From contig VOPT01000007.1 of the NCBI GenBank assembly GCA_009594865.1, positions 1-64,000 of the forward strand: a stretch of 64,000 nucleotides of DNA, in the 5' to 3' direction. A program made the position numbers and the translations under genes. Positions 35,797-45,672 of the stretch are shown here, one piece after another. Each line of letters opens with the position of its first letter. The first letter of the stretch is position 1. Under the pieces are notes generated by a model. It worked only from the letters and a program-made list of their open reading frames with translations. It was not told the origin of the DNA and did no database searches. This DNA is from Nitrospira sp. Lineage in GTDB: Bacteria; Nitrospirota; Nitrospiria; Nitrospirales; Nitrospiraceae.

Positions 35797-36195
35797 TCAC
35801 CGAAAATTGGCTTCGAGATCGGATTCCAAGGTGAAGACGAAGATGCGCTCGCCGACCACCGTATCGATGTCGGTAAACAACGCGGTGATTTTGGCGCCGA
35901 TGAGATCCGCCACCTGTTCACAGAGTCGTTCGCGGCCTTGGGCGATCAGGTTTTGGCGCAGCCGCTTGACCATATCGACGCCTTCGGCCGTTTTGGCCAG
36001 TTGTCGCTCAGCCGGCGTGAGCACCCCCTTCAGTCGCACGACGAGCATGTCCCGCACAATGAACACGCGGACCTCGTCGGGGCCGCGGCCGAGGAATTCC
36101 TGTTCGAATTTGATGATCGCCGTGCGAACGGCGGCTTCTTTTTCTCCCTTGCTGGGCACAGGCACGGTCGTCTTGCTCCCTGGTGATACAGACAT
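35797..36195 (-). CDS. DUF2294 protein
   Basis: 132 residues from ATG 36195, chosen because homology-like sequence starts just after it; a longer frame exists upstream without ribosome site. VRTAIIKFEQEFLGRGPDEV, FIVRDMLVVRLKGVLTPAER and MVKRLRQNLIAQGRERLCEQ match DUF2294, a small cytoplasmic domain with a helical tail. In several bacteria such proteins sit near carbon- or sodium-related transporters. Here it is divergent from the DAB operon, which is suggestive but no more. Confidence 0.8.
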   Translation of the reverse strand: MSVSPGSKTTVPVPSKGEKEAAVRTAIIKFEQEFLGRGPDEVRVFIVRDMLVVRLKGVLTPAERQLAKTAEGVDMVKRLRQNLIAQGRERLCEQVADLIGAKITALFTDIDTVVGERIFVFTLESDLEANFR

Positions 36196-36563: not shown

Positions 36564-38258
36564 ATGTCCTTCTTAGCCCTCGTTCCACTGTTGCCGTTAC
36601 TCACGGCCTTCATCGTGATGACCGGCGACCGTGCGGACCAGGAACAGAACGCCCGATCCGGCCTGTTCCCGATCGCCGCGTCCTTCCTCGGCTCGCTCAT
36701 CATTTTGATCGTGGTGACCTCGGACAGGCCGATCATGTTCCAGTTGTATGATCCGGCGGCTATCGCGAATCTGGCTTTCCCCATCGGCGTTTATATCGAC
36801 CGGCTCAGCGCCGTCATGATGGTCCTCATCACGGGTGTCACCACGCTCATCTATCGCTATTCGATGGGCTACATGTATCAGGATCGCGGGTATCGCCGGT
36901 ATCTGGGCATGCTCGGCATCACCACCAGCGTGCTGCTCTGCATGGTCTCCAGCGCTAATCTGGTGATGCTCTTCATCTTCTGGCAGATTCTTTCCTGGCT
37001 CCTGTTTCTCCTGGCCCACAATCACGGACATGCGGCGACCCTGTCCGGCGCGTCCAATACCTTTACGACGTTGCGACTGAGCGATGCCGCCTTCCTCGCG
37101 GGCATTGTCCTGGCCTATTCGCTCTACGGCACGTTTGAATTTCAGACACTGTTCACGCGCGCTGCCGAGACGCCGGTGACCCTGTCGATCTGGCCGGAGC
37201 TCGGCTGGGAGATGAACGGCGTCACCGCGGTGACCCTACTCATTTTTGGCGGCGCCATGGGCAAGTCGGCGCAATTCCCCATCCACACCTGGCTACCGCG
37301 ATCACTGTACGCCCCGACTCCGATTCACGCGCTGCTGCATGCAGGCATCATCAACGCTGGAGGGTTTCTGCTGAACCGGCTCGCCCCTCTCTATGGACTG
37401 AGTCCGACGACGCTGCATGTCGTCTTCGTCATCGGCATGCTCACCGCGATCCTCGGCGCCACCATGATGTTGACACAGAACGACATTAAGAAGACCCTGG
37501 GATTTTCCACCATCGGACAGATGGGCTACATGATCATGGAATGCGGCCTCGGGGCATTTTCCCTGGCCGTCTTTCATTTGATCGCACATGGGCTCTTCAA
37601 AGGGACGGTGTTCCTGAACTGCGGCAACGTGATTCATAAGGCCCGCCAGGAACCCTCATTTCCGCCGATCGACCGCGAGACGGAGGAAAGTGAATTTTCC
37701 AACCTGACCTGGTCGACCGGCTTTTTCACGACCCTGTTGCTGCCCCTGGTCATTCTGTTGGTCACTCACGGCGTGCTGCGGATCCCGCTGCTCGAATCAC
37801 AAGGGACGGTGATCTTCCTGTTCTTCATCTGGGTCACTTCCTCTCAAGCAATCCTCTCGCTGACGCGCATTCGCGCCGTAGCTTCCTGGAAGGTCTCGGC
37901 TGCCATGCTGGTGACGCTGGTCATCGTCGTCTTCACCTATCTGTTTGCGGTCGAGAGCTTCACTCATTTTCTGTATCCGAACCCTGAAGAGGTGGCCTCT
38001 TATTTCAGGGCCGCCGCGCTTCCCGGACGGCTGTTCGACAGTCTGGTCATAGGCACGACGTTGTTGACGATTCTGAGCTGGATGTATCTGTATGCCCACG
38101 CCCACGGACGAAGCATCACGATCCCCGGCTGGATCGAGTCCTTTCTCGTGCGCTTGTACGTCCTGTTCATGAACCGGCTCTACTTGGATCAGCTCTATCT
38201 CAACATCGGCCGCGTGGTCACGCAGGTCGCGCATCGTCTGGAGAAACGGCTCTCGTGA
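36564..38258 (+). CDS. dabB: DabB: NuoL-like membrane subunit of the DAB carbon pump
   Basis: 564 residues with about 14 membrane helices of the proton-pumping antiporter/NuoL family: GKSAQFPIHTWLPRSLYAPT, then IHALLHAGIINAGGFLLNRL, and TLGFSTIGQMGYMIMECGLG with a conserved Lys before it. In DAB systems (DabA with DabB, first shown in Halothiobacillus) this subunit couples the ion gradient to inorganic-carbon hydration by DabA. Identification rests on the DabA gene two positions downstream. The ATG lies only 22 nt after a terminator-like T-run. Confidence 0.9.
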   Translation: MSFLALVPLLPLLTAFIVMTGDRADQEQNARSGLFPIAASFLGSLIILIVVTSDRPIMFQLYDPAAIANLAFPIGVYIDRLSAVMMVLITGVTTLIYRYSMGYMYQDRGYRRYLGMLGITTSVLLCMVSSANLVMLFIFWQILSWLLFLLAHNHGHAATLSGASNTFTTLRLSDAAFLAGIVLAYSLYGTFEFQTLFTRAAETPVTLSIWPELGWEMNGVTAVTLLIFGGAMGKSAQFPIHTWLPRSLYAPTPIHALLHAGIINAGGFLLNRLAPLYGLSPTTLHVVFVIGMLTAILGATMMLTQNDIKKTLGFSTIGQMGYMIMECGLGAFSLAVFHLIAHGLFKGTVFLNCGNVIHKARQEPSFPPIDRETEESEFSNLTWSTGFFTTLLLPLVILLVTHGVLRIPLLESQGTVIFLFFIWVTSSQAILSLTRIRAVASWKVSAAMLVTLVIVVFTYLFAVESFTHFLYPNPEEVASYFRAAALPGRLFDSLVIGTTLLTILSWMYLYAHAHGRSITIPGWIESFLVRLYVLFMNRLYLDQLYLNIGRVVTQVAHRLEKRLS

Positions 38259-38316
38259 CGGCACTCAGATTACGCATCTCCCGCGGCGCTGCTGCATCCG
38301 TGATCGGAGTCCGGCC

Positions 38317-39624
38317 GTGATCGAGAGCTGGATGACACCCTGGCTCCTCCTCGCCATTCCTTTTTTAGGCGCAGGCCTCGGCCTGTTCATGAAGGCTTCC
38401 CTTCAGCGAATGAAGACCGTGGCCTTGACCACGACCGGACTCAGCCTGCTCACCGTCATCGGCACTTCCCTGACACAGGGTGAAGCGGCTGCCGCCCCAT
38501 CGTTGTTATGTCTGCTGCCGGCCACGGCGTTTCTCACGCTGCTCGGCCAGCCCTTGCATCGGGACAACAGTTCAGCCTGGATGATGACGCTGATCCTGCT
38601 CGGCGTGGCGCTGGGTATCCTCACGACTCACACCACCACGCAGAAGCTCTTGCTCATGCTGCTCCTCGGTCTCGTCTGCGGCTTGCTGTATCGACATCAA
38701 CAAGGCTCCGCGCCGGCGATCTGGCGAGGGATGTCCTCATTTGGTCTGGGCATCGCCACTGCCTTGATGGCCCTGACGCTTCCGGCACCGGCCTCTACGA
38801 TCGCTTCGCTGATCACCTGCGCCACGCTACTGCCGCTGCTGCCCGCGCACAGCGGATTCGTGGCGACGCTGAGCGTCTTGCCGGGCAATCTTCCTGCTTG
38901 GCTGGCTTTTATCCTGCCCACGGTCGGATTCCAAAGCCTGTACCTGCTGCTTCCATCACTCTCCGGTACCGTACTGCAGACGGTGGCTCTCCTGGCGTTG
39001 GCCGGCGCCGTGTATGGTTCACTACGGGCCTTGATTCAGTCGCATCCGCTGCCTCGGTTGGGATATGCCTCATCGGCGTTCTTCTGCATGCTCTGGTGGT
39101 ACGTGGCAGATACGGGAACCGCGCCGGTCCAAGCCCTGGTCTATCTCACCGCCGTAGGGCTCACCACCAGCGGACTGCTGATGGCGTGGTACGCCATCCG
39201 CGCGCGGTACGGGGACATCGATTTTCGGGCCCTCGGCGGGCTCGCGTATCCCATGCCTCGTTTCAGCACCCTCCTGGCGCTGCTTGGGCTTGCCGCCCTC
39301 GGCATGCCCCCGTTCGGCGTGTTTTCAGGTTTCCTCGGCATGCTACTTACCCCGACGTTTGCGCCGTCCGGACCGTTCGCCATCATCATGCTCGTCTGGC
39401 TTACCGCCTCCTGGTACTACACCGATCTCATCCAGCAGGTGGTGTTCGGACGGTCACGCATCGACGTACGGCATGAAGATTTGCGGCAGACGGAATGGAT
39501 TTCCCTCATGCTGGTGTTGCTGTTGCTTCTGATCTTGGGCATGGCCCCGTCCCGGGTGTTCGAGCCGCACGGCCCCATTCCATCTGCCACGGTCGCCATG
39601 AAGGGTGAGCCATGGACCCGATGA
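38317..39624 (+). CDS. Extra antiporter-like membrane subunit of the DAB operon
   Basis: 435 residues, about 12-14 membrane helices, GTG start with GGAG upstream. It has NuoM/MrpD-like traits only weakly: GLAALGMPPFGVFSGFLGML near the C-terminus is the best-preserved block, while the usual catalytic Lys/Glu helices are poor in charge. It is placed between dabB and dabA and overlaps dabA by 13 nt, so it should be made with them. I infer a third membrane subunit of a DAB complex, perhaps structural. Confidence 0.75.
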   Translation: MIESWMTPWLLLAIPFLGAGLGLFMKASLQRMKTVALTTTGLSLLTVIGTSLTQGEAAAAPSLLCLLPATAFLTLLGQPLHRDNSSAWMMTLILLGVALGILTTHTTTQKLLLMLLLGLVCGLLYRHQQGSAPAIWRGMSSFGLGIATALMALTLPAPASTIASLITCATLLPLLPAHSGFVATLSVLPGNLPAWLAFILPTVGFQSLYLLLPSLSGTVLQTVALLALAGAVYGSLRALIQSHPLPRLGYASSAFFCMLWWYVADTGTAPVQALVYLTAVGLTTSGLLMAWYAIRARYGDIDFRALGGLAYPMPRFSTLLALLGLAALGMPPFGVFSGFLGMLLTPTFAPSGPFAIIMLVWLTASWYYTDLIQQVVFGRSRIDVRHEDLRQTEWISLMLVLLLLLILGMAPSRVFEPHGPIPSATVAMKGEPWTR

Positions 39625-42600
39625 TTCGCATGGACGAGCCGGCCGATCTCGAACCGCGCCGCATGGAATTGCGGGGCATGATCCGGCTTGCCAGCGAAGT
39701 CATCGCGCAGTACTGGCCCATGCGAACCTTCGTGCACCATAATCCGCTGCATAGCCTCGAATATCTACCGTTTACCGAAACCGTCCGCCGTGGCCAGCAG
39801 TTCCTCGGCGGCAATGGATACCTTCCCGGCGACCTCTATCGCCGATATGTCAAAACGGGCCGCATTCTGATTCGCCACATCGACGATGCGCTGGCATCCC
39901 TGGCGAAGGAGGAGGAAGTCGACCTCGGGTCCTACCGCATCTCACAGCGGGAAGTTATGCGTGCTTGCCTGACCCATGGGCTGTCTCGACCCGCCGAGGA
40001 ACCCCTCGACCGGCTCATGGAGCGCGAACCGACCGAGGAACAGGTCGACCTCTTGGCCGAACGCCTCGTCACCTTTCCCGTGCCGACCGTGCAGGAACGG
40101 ATGGCCGCCACGGTACGCGAGGATGTGGCCGTTCTGGGGCGCGATCTGACTTTGTCGAACTGGTGCGATCGGACGTTGGGCACCCGGATCGTGGATCAGA
40201 TCAACGGCGAATTGATCAAATGGTGCGAAGCCTTTCTCGACGAAGGTCATGCCACCTGGTCGATGCCGGGACGGCGCCAGGGGCTGTATGCGGCTTGGAA
40301 ACAGGTGGCCGCCAATGAATGGGCGACCTGCGGGATTGCCGAGAGTCGCCGAAAAATTGCCGCGTTGCCCGAACATCCGGAAGACGCGGTCTTGGATTGC
40401 CTTGAGGCCTTGGCCATCCCGGCAGAGTTCCGACAGGACTACCTGGCCCTCCAGCTCGCCGCTCTACCAGGCTGGGCCGGCTTCATCAAATGGCGCGCCG
40501 AAGAAAACGACTATGCCTGGCAACAGGCGTACCCTGTCGGCTTGGTCAAATTTCTCGCCGTGCGTCTCTGGTATGTCCGCGAGCTCGTCGAGAAAGCCTG
40601 CCAGGAAGAATTGGGCATCGAGGGGAACTATCGCGCGGTGCTGCGCTTTATGGACCAACAGTCGGCCGGATACTTCATGCGCAAGGAATGGGTCGCCGGC
40701 CGCCTGCCGGCCGCCTATGCCGACCGTGTCGCACGCCTGCATGCGCGATCGCGGTCTCTCCAGAACAAGGCGACGTTATGCCGCGAATGGGACCAACTCA
40801 CGCATCACTATCAGATCGAATACGGCCCGCGCCAGGAACGAGCCACGCAGCGGGCGATGGCTCGACGTCTGCTCACGCTCGCCCAGGCACTCGATATCGT
40901 GCCGACCCTCTTGATGGACGCTCACCCGACCGCCCTTCGCCAACTCCTGGATTGGATGGCCGCATTTCCCGAATCAGCCCATGGCCCGGTCTGGCTCACA
41001 GCCTTTGAAGCAGGCTACCAGGATCATCTGTTCGGCCTGCTTCGGCGTGCGCCGACCAAGCCACAACCGGTTGCTCCCGACGGTCAACCGCCGGTCCGCC
41101 CCCAATCTCAATCGGTCTTTTGTATCGATGTGCGATCCGAGCCGTTCCGCCGGCACCTGGAGTCAACGGGCGCCAACGAGACCTATGGCTTCGCAGGATT
41201 TTTCGCCGCCCTCATCCGATATCGCGCCTGGGGCAAGGAGCATGACACGGAGCAGTTTCCGGTGATCATGCGCGCGAAGAACGAAGTCCGCGAAATCCCA
41301 CGCAGCTACTTGGACCACTACGTGTCCAAACACCAGTCGCGGGCAAAACTGGTCCATGCCGGTCACACGCTCCTGCACGACTTGAAGGAAAACGTCGTCA
41401 CGCCGTATGTGATGGTCGAATCGCTCGGCTGGTTTTACGCCCTCCCCATGATGGGCAAGACCTTCCTGCCAGCCATGTACAAACGCCTGACCAGCTGGAT
41501 CCGCCGGTTGTTCGTTCCGCCGATCGCCACGATTTTAACCGTCGACAAACTGGCGCCGGCGGAAACCGAAGAAATGGTGGTCTCCGAGCAACGCGCCCTG
41601 ATCTGGAAAGCCCTGCGTGACCGGCTTGGCCTGCATGGTTCGCAAGTCGAAGCGGAATTGGTCGAGGCGTTGCGACGGCGGGCCTTGGACGAGGATGCGC
41701 CGGTGGAACCGTTTCTCAGTGAGGCCGCCCGTGCAGTTGATCTGTCCAGCGAGCAACTGACCACGTTTGTGGATGAACTGCGGCGGCACTACCGGATCAA
41801 TCGACGCGCGGCCTCGCGCCAGAAAGAACGCATCACTCGCACCGGCTTCACACTGGAGGAGCAAGTCCTGACCCTCGAAACGGCCTTGCGCATGATGGGC
41901 CTGGTGCGAAATTTCGCTCGATTGGTACTCTTCTGTGCCCACGGCAGCACGACGGAAAACAATCCGTTTGAGTCGGCGCTGGACTGCGGCGCCTGCGGCG
42001 GGAACGAGGGCAAACCGAATGCCCGTGTGTTGGCCGCGATGGCCAACCGCGCTCCGGTACGCGAACGGTTGGCGAAACGGGGCATCATCATTCCGCCGGA
42101 TACGCATTTCCTTGCGGGACAAGTCGATACCACGACCGATGAGGTGCAGCTGTTCGATCTCGAAGACGCGCCCCCGACCCACCGCAAGGACGTCGCTCGC
42201 CTGTATGACGATTTGCGGGAGGCGGCTCAGCTGACCAGCCAGGAGCGCTGTACCAGATTTCCGGACGTCGGCGCTGTCCTGCCCTTGGACAAAGCCTCGG
42301 GCCATGTGGCCGCACGCAGCGCGGACTGGAGTCAGGTGCGGCCCGAGTGGGGCCTGTCCGGCAATACCGCCTTCATCATCGGCCGGCGGGAACTGACGAA
42401 GGGGCTGAACCTGTCCGGGCGCATCTTTCTACAATCGTACGATTATCGCGAAGACCCGACGGATCGCTGGCTCGAAGTGCTTCTCACCGCTCCGCAAGTA
42501 GTGGCGCAGTGGATCAACATGGAGCATTATTTCTCAGCCGTGGATAACGACGTGTATGGAAGCGGGAGCAAGATTTATCATAACGTCGTCGGCCGCATCG

Positions 42601-42890
42601 GCGTCATGTCAGGCCCCTGGAGCGATCTCCGCCTCGGCCTGGCTTGGCAAACCGTCATGAACGATGAGCTGCCGTATCATGAGCCGATGCGCTTGACGAC
42701 GCTGGTGGAAGCCTCGCGCGCGCGGATCGAAAAACTCATCGCACGGCATGAGATCCTGCAGCATTTCTATCACAACGAGTGGGTCCACCTGGCTGCGTTG
42801 GATCCTGAAGACGGCACCTGGTACCGCTATATGCCCTCGGGCGTATGGCGAAGGGTTCAGCATCCGAGCGAGACCACACAGGCTGGGTAA
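39612..42890 (+). CDS. dabA: DabA: zinc-dependent inorganic-carbon transporter subunit (DUF2309)
   Basis: 1,092 residues. The beta-carbonic-anhydrase-like zinc site is visible: Cys504 and Asp506 in FCIDVRSE, His777 in CAHGSTTENNP and Cys792 in LDCGACGG; the His-to-Cys distance of 15 residues equals that in the studied DabA. DabA hydrates CO2 in one direction, driven by DabB, so that bicarbonate builds up in the cytoplasm. Longer than the classic protein, mostly in the N-terminal region. Third gene of the operon. Confidence 0.95.
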   Translation: MDPMIRMDEPADLEPRRMELRGMIRLASEVIAQYWPMRTFVHHNPLHSLEYLPFTETVRRGQQFLGGNGYLPGDLYRRYVKTGRILIRHIDDALASLAKEEEVDLGSYRISQREVMRACLTHGLSRPAEEPLDRLMEREPTEEQVDLLAERLVTFPVPTVQERMAATVREDVAVLGRDLTLSNWCDRTLGTRIVDQINGELIKWCEAFLDEGHATWSMPGRRQGLYAAWKQVAANEWATCGIAESRRKIAALPEHPEDAVLDCLEALAIPAEFRQDYLALQLAALPGWAGFIKWRAEENDYAWQQAYPVGLVKFLAVRLWYVRELVEKACQEELGIEGNYRAVLRFMDQQSAGYFMRKEWVAGRLPAAYADRVARLHARSRSLQNKATLCREWDQLTHHYQIEYGPRQERATQRAMARRLLTLAQALDIVPTLLMDAHPTALRQLLDWMAAFPESAHGPVWLTAFEAGYQDHLFGLLRRAPTKPQPVAPDGQPPVRPQSQSVFCIDVRSEPFRRHLESTGANETYGFAGFFAALIRYRAWGKEHDTEQFPVIMRAKNEVREIPRSYLDHYVSKHQSRAKLVHAGHTLLHDLKENVVTPYVMVESLGWFYALPMMGKTFLPAMYKRLTSWIRRLFVPPIATILTVDKLAPAETEEMVVSEQRALIWKALRDRLGLHGSQVEAELVEALRRRALDEDAPVEPFLSEAARAVDLSSEQLTTFVDELRRHYRINRRAASRQKERITRTGFTLEEQVLTLETALRMMGLVRNFARLVLFCAHGSTTENNPFESALDCGACGGNEGKPNARVLAAMANRAPVRERLAKRGIIIPPDTHFLAGQVDTTTDEVQLFDLEDAPPTHRKDVARLYDDLREAAQLTSQERCTRFPDVGAVLPLDKASGHVAARSADWSQVRPEWGLSGNTAFIIGRRELTKGLNLSGRIFLQSYDYREDPTDRWLEVLLTAPQVVAQWINMEHYFSAVDNDVYGSGSKIYHNVVGRIGVMSGPWSDLRLGLAWQTVMNDELPYHEPMRLTTLVEASRARIEKLIARHEILQHFYHNEWVHLAALDPEDGTWYRYMPSGVWRRVQHPSETTQAG

Positions 42891-42935
42891 TCGCTCGATG
42901 TCGCACACGACGATCACTTTCAAAGGAGTCGAGAC

Positions 42936-43277
42936 ATGGCCGCACTCACATTGCATCCCATGAAGGAAATTCGTGTCATTGTGTCCGGGGAACACCGGCC
43001 GTTTGTCACCGAGTTGCTGGACAAGGTGGAGGCGACCGGGTACACAATCATCGGCAACATTTCTGGTAAGGGCCACCACGGCGTGCGCGAGGCGCACTTC
43101 ATGTTCAGCGAGCAGGAAAGCCTGGTGATGATCATGGCGGTGGTGCCAGAAGAAAAGGTGGAGCCGGTGTTGGCCGGATTACGGCCGCTGTTCGACCGCC
43201 ACTCAGGGGTCATGTTCGTGTCTGATGTGTCCGTCAGCCGGCGTGAATATTTCGGAAAGAAGAGTGCCAAACCCTGA
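42936..43277 (+). CDS. PII-like signalling protein of the DAB operon
   Basis: 113 residues, AAGGAG before the ATG. A ferredoxin-like PII fold: KEIRVIVSGEHRPFVTELLD, then GYTIIGNISGKGHHG in place of the canonical T-loop start, and MIMAVVPEEKVEPVLAGLRP in the C-terminal half. It lacks the uridylylation Tyr loop of GlnB and has no GlnB-specific signature, so it belongs with PII-like proteins that sense carbon or nucleotides, such as SbtB and carboxysome PII. It probably controls the DAB pump. Confidence 0.85.
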   Translation: MAALTLHPMKEIRVIVSGEHRPFVTELLDKVEATGYTIIGNISGKGHHGVREAHFMFSEQESLVMIMAVVPEEKVEPVLAGLRPLFDRHSGVMFVSDVSVSRREYFGKKSAKP

Positions 43278-43393: not shown

Positions 43394-43663
43394 GTGAAGG
43401 GATTACGGTTCGAACGGCTCGGGCGGGATCGCCACTACAACATCATTTTCCACATCGGCACGAGCTATGTGCCGGTGAGCGACGAGACCATCGACGAACT
43501 GAAGGCGCAAAGCCTCTTGTCCTCCGAGCGTTTTCTCGACCTCCTCATCGACAAAATCGGCTACACCAACTACCTCAAAGAACAGATCCGCGGGGAACTC
43601 CAAGCCTCCGGCGACCCCATGACCCAGATGACCGTCCTCCAAGGCGCGATTCGGGAACTCTAA
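43394..43663 (+). CDS. Small hypothetical protein after the DAB operon
   Basis: 89 residues, GTG start with GGAAGGA upstream. No signal or membrane helix. FERLGRDRHYNIIFHIGTSY is beta-like; the rest is helical (DELKAQSLLSSERFLDLLID). I do not recognise it. It lies 116 nt downstream of the PII-like gene and may be part of that transcript. A hairpin repeat starts 2 nt after its stop. Confidence 0.6.
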   Translation: MKGLRFERLGRDRHYNIIFHIGTSYVPVSDETIDELKAQSLLSSERFLDLLIDKIGYTNYLKEQIRGELQASGDPMTQMTVLQGAIREL

Positions 43664-43860: not shown

Positions 43861-44068
43861 TCAATCCTGAATTCTTCCTGTGAAGCAACGCTTCCGTTTG
43901 AGCTTCGCCTCAAAAATCTTGTTATGGCCGTGCAGGATACTGATTCCGGCGCCCAGGCTCCATCCGGCTGTACCGACGACGTTGGCCGATCGATCTGATC
44001 CTACGCGAAGAAACGTCCGAGTTACGTCGTAAAAGCCGATGGAGAGACGGCCATTGTTGGAAAGGCCT
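43861..44068 (-). pseudogene. Possible gene fragment overlapping the VapC 3' end
   Basis: A reverse frame different from vapC reads NNGRLSIGFYDVTRTFLRVG and then SDRSANVVGTAGWSLGAGIS, ending at TGA 43861-43863. It has no start codon and is blocked upstream by a stop inside vapC. The Gly/Ala-rich amphipathic look is that of a real protein end, but I cannot name the family. Confidence 0.25.
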
Positions 44069-44423
44069 TAAGAATCTGACGATCACTCGTGACCAGAGGC
44101 ACTTCCAAGTCCTGAGCAAGAGCCACGAATTCGCAATCGTAAGCGGAACAGCCGGACCGAGCTGCCAGCGTCAGCACATGTGCCGAAAGCACGCTGTATT
44201 CATGCCCTGTCAGCCACCGTTCGGCTTCTTCGCTCATCGCGAGCGCATCATTCAACTGAAGCGCGCCTGCCCGGATCAGTCCGACCAGGGCATTCCGAAA
44301 CTCTGAGCGCCACAACAACGGCACGGTCCACACTGCGTCCCGCCTGAGCACGGCCTCACTCTCTTCTGTCCGCTGACCTTGGACATAGAGATAGATCAAC
44401 AGATTCGTATCCGCCACTATCAT
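44022..44423 (-). CDS. vapC: VapC-family PIN-domain toxin
   Basis: 133 residues. MIVADTNLLIYLYV gives Asp5 and Asn7, then Glu41 (LLWRSEFRNAL), and the late acidic cluster in CSAYDCEFVALA and VTSDRQILKAFP. PIN-domain ribonuclease of the VapC/FitB type. It overlaps the RHH antitoxin by 4 nt. Part of a toxin-antitoxin patch after the DAB operon. Confidence 0.9.
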   Translation of the reverse strand: MIVADTNLLIYLYVQGQRTEESEAVLRRDAVWTVPLLWRSEFRNALVGLIRAGALQLNDALAMSEEAERWLTGHEYSVLSAHVLTLAARSGCSAYDCEFVALAQDLEVPLVTSDRQILKAFPTMAVSPSAFTT

Positions 44424-44662
44424 GGCCGACCGGCCGTTTTGAGATCCTGAAGCAGGCGATCGTTGAGTCGAATCCCTTTGGGGATGCGGCGAACGGCCCG
44501 CGCCTTGGCCAGTAAGGCATCTGCGTCAATGGGGACGCTGTGAGTCATCTGTTCCAGGCAGGAAATGACCTCAAAGTTCAAACTGCGTCGATGCGCGGCA
44601 GCTTGTTGCTTGAGGCGCTTGACCAAGGGTTCGGGAATATTTTTGATGGTCAAGGTTGCCAC
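44420..44662 (-). CDS. FitA/Arc-type ribbon-helix-helix antitoxin
   Basis: 80 residues. ATLTIKNIPEPLVKRLKQQA and AHRRSLNFEVISCLEQ form a ribbon-helix-helix DNA-binding domain; the tail (RRIPKGIRLNDRLLQDLK) should bind the toxin. GAGGAG lies 6 nt before the ATG. A palindrome that fits autoregulation lies 17-37 nt upstream of the ATG. Confidence 0.9.
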   Translation of the reverse strand: MATLTIKNIPEPLVKRLKQQAAAHRRSLNFEVISCLEQMTHSVPIDADALLAKARAVRRIPKGIRLNDRLLQDLKTAGRP

Positions 44663-44819: not shown

Positions 44820-44944
44820 TCGGCTGCTGGAAGTTCCCTCCAACTTCGTTCTCGGTCACCCGTTCACCTCGATGTACGGAATCAACACGCCTCCGTGTTC
44901 AGACTTCTTGCAGCCTTGCCAGAGAAAGCTTTGAGCAGCTTTGG
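44820..44944 (-). repeat. Dispersed hairpin element, diverged copy in reverse orientation
   Basis: Arms TCGGCTGCTGGAAG and CTTTGAGCAGCTTTGG are partly complementary. In between, CCAACTTCGTTCTCGGTC, ACCTCGATGTACGGAAT, CACGCCTCCGTGTT and TTGCAGCCTTGCC match the reverse core. Lies 45 nt before higB. Confidence 0.65.
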
Positions 44945-44988
44945 TAGGCATCCGCTCCGTCATCGTGGATTGCTCCCAAACTGGGATC

Positions 44989-45297
44989 ATGGTAGACTGC
45001 GCCCTGCGTATTATCGCGAAACGGACTCTTGTCACATTCTGGGATCGGCACCCACGCGCGAGAGGACCGTTAGAGGCCTGGCATCAGGAAGTGGTTCATG
45101 CAGATTGGTCAACCCCGCCTGAGCTTAAAGCCCAGTTTCGCTCAGCGAGTGTGCTGCAAGGCAGCCGTGCGGTGTTCAACATTGCAGGGAACCAGTACCG
45201 ATTGGTGGTGAAGATTAACTACGCCTATCGGATTGTCTATATCCGTTTCGTCGGCACCCATCAAGAGTATGACCAGATCGATGTACAGACCGTCTGA
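44989..45297 (+). CDS. higB: HigB-type toxin (RelE fold)
   Basis: 102 residues from ATG 44989; family members usually start at the LRIIAKRTLVTFW block, so a few extra residues are present. PLEAWHQEVVHADWSTP, FNIAGNQYRLVVKINYAYR and VYIRFVGTHQEYDQID match HigB toxins that cut mRNA on the ribosome. Followed 15 nt later by the XRE-type antitoxin, in toxin-first order typical of HigBA. Confidence 0.9.
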   Translation: MVDCALRIIAKRTLVTFWDRHPRARGPLEAWHQEVVHADWSTPPELKAQFRSASVLQGSRAVFNIAGNQYRLVVKINYAYRIVYIRFVGTHQEYDQIDVQTV

Positions 45298-45312
45298 CAA
45301 GGTGCAGAAGCC

Positions 45313-45672
45313 ATGAATATTTCTCCGATCAAAACCAAGCGGGATCATGAGCGTGCGTTGCTTCGCATCGAACACCTGATGGATGCAAAGCCCGGCACCA
45401 AGGCCGGAGACGAGTTGGACATTCTCACCACCCTCGTGGAAGCCTACGAGGCCAAGCATTATACAATCAGTCCACCTGACCCCGTTGAAGCGATTCGATT
45501 TCGGATGGAACAATTAGGCATGAGCCGGAAGGATTTGGAGGCATTGCTCGGCGGGCGAGGCCGAGTCTCTGAAATTCTTTCAAAAAAACGCGGCCTCTCA
45601 CTGACTATGATTCGTCGAATCCATCGCACACTCCACATTCCACTCGAAAGCCTGATCGGCACAGCGGCGTAG
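45313..45672 (+). CDS. higA: HigA-type antitoxin (XRE helix-turn-helix)
   Basis: 119 residues. The N-terminal half is acidic-helical (DELDILTTLVEAYEAKHY), and residues about 60-105 form the helix-turn-helix (EQLGMSRKDLEALLGGRGRV, SLTMIRRIHRTLHIP). Expected to bind HigB and its own promoter. No palindrome is evident before higB, perhaps because a repeat sits there. Confidence 0.9.
   Translation: MNISPIKTKRDHERALLRIEHLMDAKPGTKAGDELDILTTLVEAYEAKHYTISPPDPVEAIRFRMEQLGMSRKDLEALLGGRGRVSEILSKKRGLSLTMIRRIHRTLHIPLESLIGTAA

Follow-up and report, generated by a model that had tools for sequence, protein, structure and literature searches.

The operon considered here lies in a window of 64,000 nucleotides, the whole stretch of DNA that was analysed, from a Nitrospira genome with an estimated completeness of 85%, and it raises the question of what a further multi-pass membrane protein, encoded between dabB and dabA, contributes to an inorganic carbon pump of the DAB type. 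The four open reading frames dabB, middle gene, dabA and PII-like gene were found where the original prediction had placed them, and the domain families assigned to them (Table 1) agree with its reading of a DAB-type operon with an antiporter-like third subunit and a PII-like gene. The overlap of 13 nt between the middle gene and dabA, which had also been noticed, was confirmed, and a gap of 58 nt separates dabB from the middle gene. Two neighbours had not been mentioned before, namely a divergent mpsC homologue, which likely starts at a Met located 132 codons from the end of its open reading frame, and a conserved 89-aa open reading frame. In our view, the locus is probably a DAB1-type three-subunit DAB with an enlarged middle subunit, that is, a CO2 pump in which the middle protein would serve as a non-pumping structural brace or gate for DabB. 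Further downstream, open reading frames at 44022-44662 and 44941-45672 read, from their translations alone, like two toxin-antitoxin pairs, one of the PIN-type VapBC and one of the HigBA type.

Table 1. Features of the putative DAB1-type operon and its flanks (positions within the window).
Feature	Position	Strand	Description
mpsC homologue	~35797..36195	-	PF10057, E 3.7e-35; divergent from dabB
dabB	36564..38258	+	NuoL-like membrane subunit, 564 aa; PF00361/PF00662
Middle gene (probable DAB interstitial subunit, enlarged form)	38317..39624	+	435 aa, GTG start, 14 TM helices predicted
dabA	39612..42890	+	Long-type, beta-carbonic-anhydrase-like subunit, 1092 aa; PF10070
PII-like gene, CPII type by homology	42936..43277	+	113 aa; PF00543
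89-aa ORF, conserved	43394..43663	+	Recurs downstream of the PII-like gene in relatives

DabA matches PF10070 with an E-value of 2.7e-263 and aligns with DabA2 of PDB 9rd0. The zinc ligands Cys504, Asp506, His777 and Cys792 named in the original prediction are present and, together with Arg508, invariant in an alignment of 77 DabA proteins, and DabA has the Cys2-His zinc site and the Asp-Arg dyad of a DAB/DAC pump. The finger glutamate, which is essential in DabA2 (E444), corresponds to Glu603 in the motif VMVES, which aligns with FVES of DabA2 in the family alignment; the assignment from a first HMMER alignment, in which His/Asp stood opposite the finger glutamate, was dropped. Aligned to DabB2, DabB retains K234, H259, K309, S315, H338, H342 and K346, whose equivalents K235, H260, K310, S316, H339, H343 and K347 have been shown to matter, as their mutation impairs DAB2 (PMC13144422). 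The sole exception among the lysines, histidines and serines checked is His255, which replaces Ser256 of DabB2, and the position of the closed-state Glu144 of NuoL is a Gln in DabB. From these conserved residues we infer a CO2-hydrating pump in which proton-driven hydration would follow the mechanism published for DAB2: DabA would be a zinc-containing, beta-carbonic anhydrase (CA)-like enzyme and, with its membrane finger, would complete a half-channel for protons in the NuoL-like DabB, and proton flow would drive the one-way hydration of CO2 to bicarbonate, with DIC accumulating.

The middle protein is NuoM-like according to NCBIfam, a PDB profile search and Foldseek, the NuoM match covering its C-terminal two thirds. 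Its AlphaFold model (pTM 0.79, mean pLDDT 76) contains 14 membrane helices, of which helices 12-14 are of low confidence, and reaches TM-scores of 0.75-0.81 to NuoM, ND4, NdhD and MrpD chains in Foldseek. The model predicts an antiporter-like NuoM/MrpD fold in its complete 14-helix form, and the positive-inside count (14.2 K+R inside versus 3.2 outside) fits a 14-helix topology with both the N- and the C-terminus outside. The possibility of a stray complex I gene was rejected, as the PF00361 members of the genome were traced either to the complex I regions C35 and C4 or to one of the two dabB genes.

A third subunit is not in itself a novelty. The original prediction had taken the described DAB to consist of DabA and DabB only, which is wrong: DAB1 of Halothiobacillus neapolitanus is a three-subunit system with a small hypothetical membrane protein, hneap_0908 (PMC13144422), the gene between dabA1 and dabB1 belongs to the mrpA family (PF00361), and the three DAB1 genes together, the interstitial gene included, rescue CA-free E. 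coli (PMC7714395). The three-gene architecture is thus already known. In Gammaproteobacteria, sampled here because Nitrosomonas belongs to this class, each of the 20 long-DabA loci read contains dabB, an interstitial gene of ~255 aa (250-260), dabA and, nearby, a PII-like gene; hneap_0908 was equated with these loci by position and description. The gammaproteobacterial interstitial proteins are homologous to the Nitrospira middle protein over helices 7-14 (hhalign E 5e-18) and more weakly to NuoM (E 6.7e-8), and a comparison with DabB showed no homology. They lack helices 1-6, and neither Lys nor Glu is conserved in the helices that they have. We treat the small size of the interstitial protein as descriptive of the DAB1 type rather than defining.

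The middle gene is kept together with dabA and dabB across the Nitrospirota and beyond, so the lack of conservation that would have spoken against the original prediction was not observed. In a survey of 61 Nitrospirales genomes it is present in 27 of the 28 other members of the genus, and in the single member without it dabA is cut by the contig end. A phylum-wide sample of 296 Nitrospirota genomes yielded the middle gene in 96 and DabA in 125. Among 108 copies checked, which include some genomes present in both collections, 80 are flanked by dabB and dabA and 18 are fused to the C-terminus of DabB with dabA adjacent; the remaining copies are mostly affected by contig ends or split frames. 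The fused form, of about 870-930 aa, comprises DabB and the last nine helices (6-14); besides several further families of the Nitrospirota, Ca. Scalindua and one MAG titled Deltaproteobacteria have it. When a natural fusion was modelled as one unit, the whole chain reached a pTM of 0.80, and Foldseek with this model returned NuoL-like chains only. Since DabB2 has 15 membrane helices (PMC13144422), the C-terminus of DabB should be cytoplasmic, where helix 6 of the middle protein starts, and a fusion beginning at helix 6 is consistent with the predicted 14-helix topology. We regard the fusion as the strongest sign that the middle protein may physically associate with DabB. As a separate variation in gene order, dabB is present in some Nitrospiraceae as a tandem pair, with the middle gene and dabA after it (L044, L093, L094, L117, L120, L121, L133, L134, L135, L138).

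Stand-alone middle genes were also found in Nitrosomonas sp. Nm51 and N. nitrosa Nm90, and the nesting of both DabA sequences with the Nitrospiraceae in the tree points to a transfer of the operon. Ordinary NuoM proteins score at ~1e-30 with the profile used (A3) in the Nitrosomonadaceae, so that just 2 of the 125 genomes from that group are real matches, and the corresponding count for the order of Ca. Scalindua is 4 of 62. No DAB other than the three-gene form was found in the two Nitrosomonas genomes, which have no second DabA, and none other than the fused form in Ca. Scalindua. Both Nitrosomonas loci have an SbtA gene upstream, the Ca. Scalindua locus has a gene for a SulP-family transporter, and these adjoining DIC transporter genes count in favour of a DAB function. 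Transporter genes of the DAB kind have already been surveyed in Nitrospirae with the reductive TCA cycle (PMC10880623). The special link to this cycle that had been suggested for the locus does not hold, since Nitrosomonas with the three-gene form and Ca. Scalindua with the fused form carry the system too; together with the gammaproteobacterial loci, they also led us to reject the idea that a third subunit is peculiar to this organism or to such carbon fixers.

The same genome contains a second locus (L003) with dabB, dabA and a PII-like gene but no middle gene; a sensor kinase and an NtrC-type regulator come next. This two-gene DAB with a long DabA implies that the middle gene is not needed by every DAB; in the DabA tree, the two-gene DabAs form one clade with 99% SH-aLRT support. 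This two-gene sister clade also contains dabA genes without an adjacent dabB (L058, L064 3751-7137, L075 4604-7891, L172, L176, L185). Another separate DabA clade, without dabB, is located immediately before Mrp-type Na+/H+ antiporter genes (mrpE, mrpF, MbhD/E-like, mrpB, mrpC and mrpD) in the relatives' loci L054 3697-13000, L173 3137-9501, L184 1072-8386 and L177 3006-8851, with mrpG in L177, often with mpsC, and with a SulP-family transporter in L054 and probably L184; it is possibly a Na+-linked DabA system. In L181 3219-8611 and L182 711-6160, a further DabA type is followed by a DabB-like protein of 700-750 aa that is ~30% identical to DabB.

Among solved structures, the PII-like protein is closest to the 5d4n series, deposited as P-II/GlnB (E 8.9e-35, residues 1-103), which we take to be the Thiomonas CPII protein, and its sequence would place it in the CPII type. 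As a probable sensor of bicarbonate or adenylates, it would tune the complex. Nearly all Nitrospirota-type and gammaproteobacterial DAB1-type loci read have a PII-like gene after dabA, and none lies directly after dabA in the two Nitrosomonas loci and Ca. Scalindua. On the other flank, an mpsC homologue is recurrently found in divergent orientation beside dabB in the Nitrospirota relatives, which contradicts a published statement restricting the collocation of mpsC to staphylococci; deletion of mpsC in S. aureus gave no phenotype. The 89-aa open reading frame occupies the same place in many Nitrospiraceae loci with 67-99% identity and had no significant match in the family searches. With such companions, the middle protein could be mainly regulatory, a docking site or gate for control by the PII-like protein or MpsC, as the near-constant PII-like gene and the recurrent mpsC might suggest. 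We consider this unlikely, because the two-gene DAB carries a PII-like gene without having a middle gene, and the two Nitrosomonas loci and Ca. Scalindua retain the middle segment without a PII-like gene directly after dabA. The control by PII proposed in the original prediction stays plausible, though with no particular link to the middle gene, given that PII-like genes also accompany the two-gene DAB of this genome and the gammaproteobacterial loci.

It had further been proposed that the third subunit could change the ion stoichiometry. In a profile alignment of 26 middle proteins with NuoM, Lys234 of NuoM corresponds to Leu171 in the protein studied here and is a Lys in none of the 26, His322 to Phe255 (mostly Phe), His348 to Val280 (mostly Val) and Glu407 to Phe339 (Phe, Leu or Ile), while Lys265 aligns to a gap with no Lys there. 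His241 is the sole checked channel residue that is kept (25 of 26 rows). The middle protein therefore has neither the TM7/TM8 lysines nor the TM12 Glu/Lys of a NuoM/MrpD proton pump and, helix ends aside, no conserved charge inside its predicted helices, the others being located in loops. As the proton-carrying lysines and the glutamate of NuoM are lost, an extra pumping step is unlikely, and the altered stoichiometry finds no basis in these residues. A working second ion channel or antiporter with an added translocation step would be in line with the antiporter-like fold, with NuoM as closest relative, with the retained His241 and with the Nitrosomonas homologue, which passes the PF00361 cut-off; nevertheless, it is quite improbable in view of the loss of all other checked channel residues in the Nitrospirota proteins, the missing buried charge, and gammaproteobacterial versions that do without helices 1-6 and without a conserved Lys or Glu in the helices.

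Compared with three relatives, the middle gene has a dN/dS of 0.14-0.20, as opposed to 0.04-0.08 for the neighbouring genes; it is a coding gene under purifying selection that is weaker than on its neighbours, which rules out a chance or non-coding open reading frame. That it is dispensable and persists in the operon only as the relic of a decaying antiporter is highly improbable, for although its faster evolution, lost functional residues, sizes from 255 to 435 aa and absence from the two-gene DAB would suit a relic, it is under purifying selection, almost universally retained across phyla, transferred with the operon into Nitrosomonas and repeatedly fused to DabB.

The explanation that we prefer is a DAB1-type pump with a third, non-pumping subunit, which would stand beside DabB much as NuoM stands beside NuoL and would keep the antiporter-like fold without the proton-moving residues, as brace or gate and not as pump. 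It may brace the splayed DabB helices 12-15 or, alternatively, gate the entry of protons. In the Nitrospirales, the subunit has its full set of 14 predicted helices, ~255 residues corresponding to helices 7-14 would suffice in Gammaproteobacteria, and other Nitrospirota and Ca. Scalindua have helices 6-14 fused to DabB. We infer this assembly, function and regulation of the complex from the observed genes, their order and homology, the residue loss, the fusion and the predicted fold of the middle protein. Counted against it are the faster evolution of the middle protein relative to its neighbours, the DAB of the same genome whose layout does without the middle gene, and the low confidence of the AlphaFold model in helices 12-14. 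A more far-reaching version, which we put forward only tentatively, is that a disarmed antiporter module is common to all DAB1-type pumps and that in Nitrospirota a complete NuoM-like fold docks on DabB, resulting in a NuoL-NuoM-CA assembly that is convergent with the NDH-1MS tip and gates proton entry under PII/MpsC control.

The published DAB structure and mechanism rest on the two-subunit DAB2 (PMC13144422). For a widespread class, with Nitrospira, some Nitrosomonas and Ca. Scalindua among its members, this two-subunit model would be incomplete if a conserved non-pumping antiporter subunit were present in all DAB1-type pumps. Ready controls for the role of the middle subunit are available in the natural DabB fusions and in the two-gene paralogue that this genome carries. 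As far as the literature shows, the loss of channel residues, the size variants and the fusion to DabB have not been described; they are new here, as is the conserved divergent mpsC.

Among known systems, cyanobacterial NDH-1MS (NdhD3, NdhF3, CupA) is comparable by analogy only, in that a NuoL-like and NuoM-like pair is joined to a CA-like subunit; here, DabA takes the place of CupA, the NuoM-like partner is without channel residues, and genes for an NADH or ferredoxin dehydrogenase, Ndh core subunits or CupA were not found in the operon. MpsAB(C) of Staphylococcus aureus shares the DabB and DabA homologues and a nearby mpsC homologue, whereas at this locus mpsC is divergent and an extra membrane subunit is present; the coupling ion has been proposed to be Na+ for MpsAB and protons for DAB2. 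The latter, from H. neapolitanus (DabA2-DabB2, PDB 9rd0), has the zinc ligands, the Asp-Arg dyad, the finger Glu and the proton-path residues of DabB in common with this locus, but its DabA is shorter and a middle subunit is absent. DAB1 of the same organism (dabB1 hneap_0909, hneap_0908, dabA1 hneap_0907) likewise has an antiporter-family gene between dabB and dabA, and the active site of DabA1 (C462/D464) fits a long DabA, as here; unlike the small DAB1-type interstitial protein of ~255 aa, the middle protein of this Nitrospira has 435 aa and a predicted full set of 14 helices.
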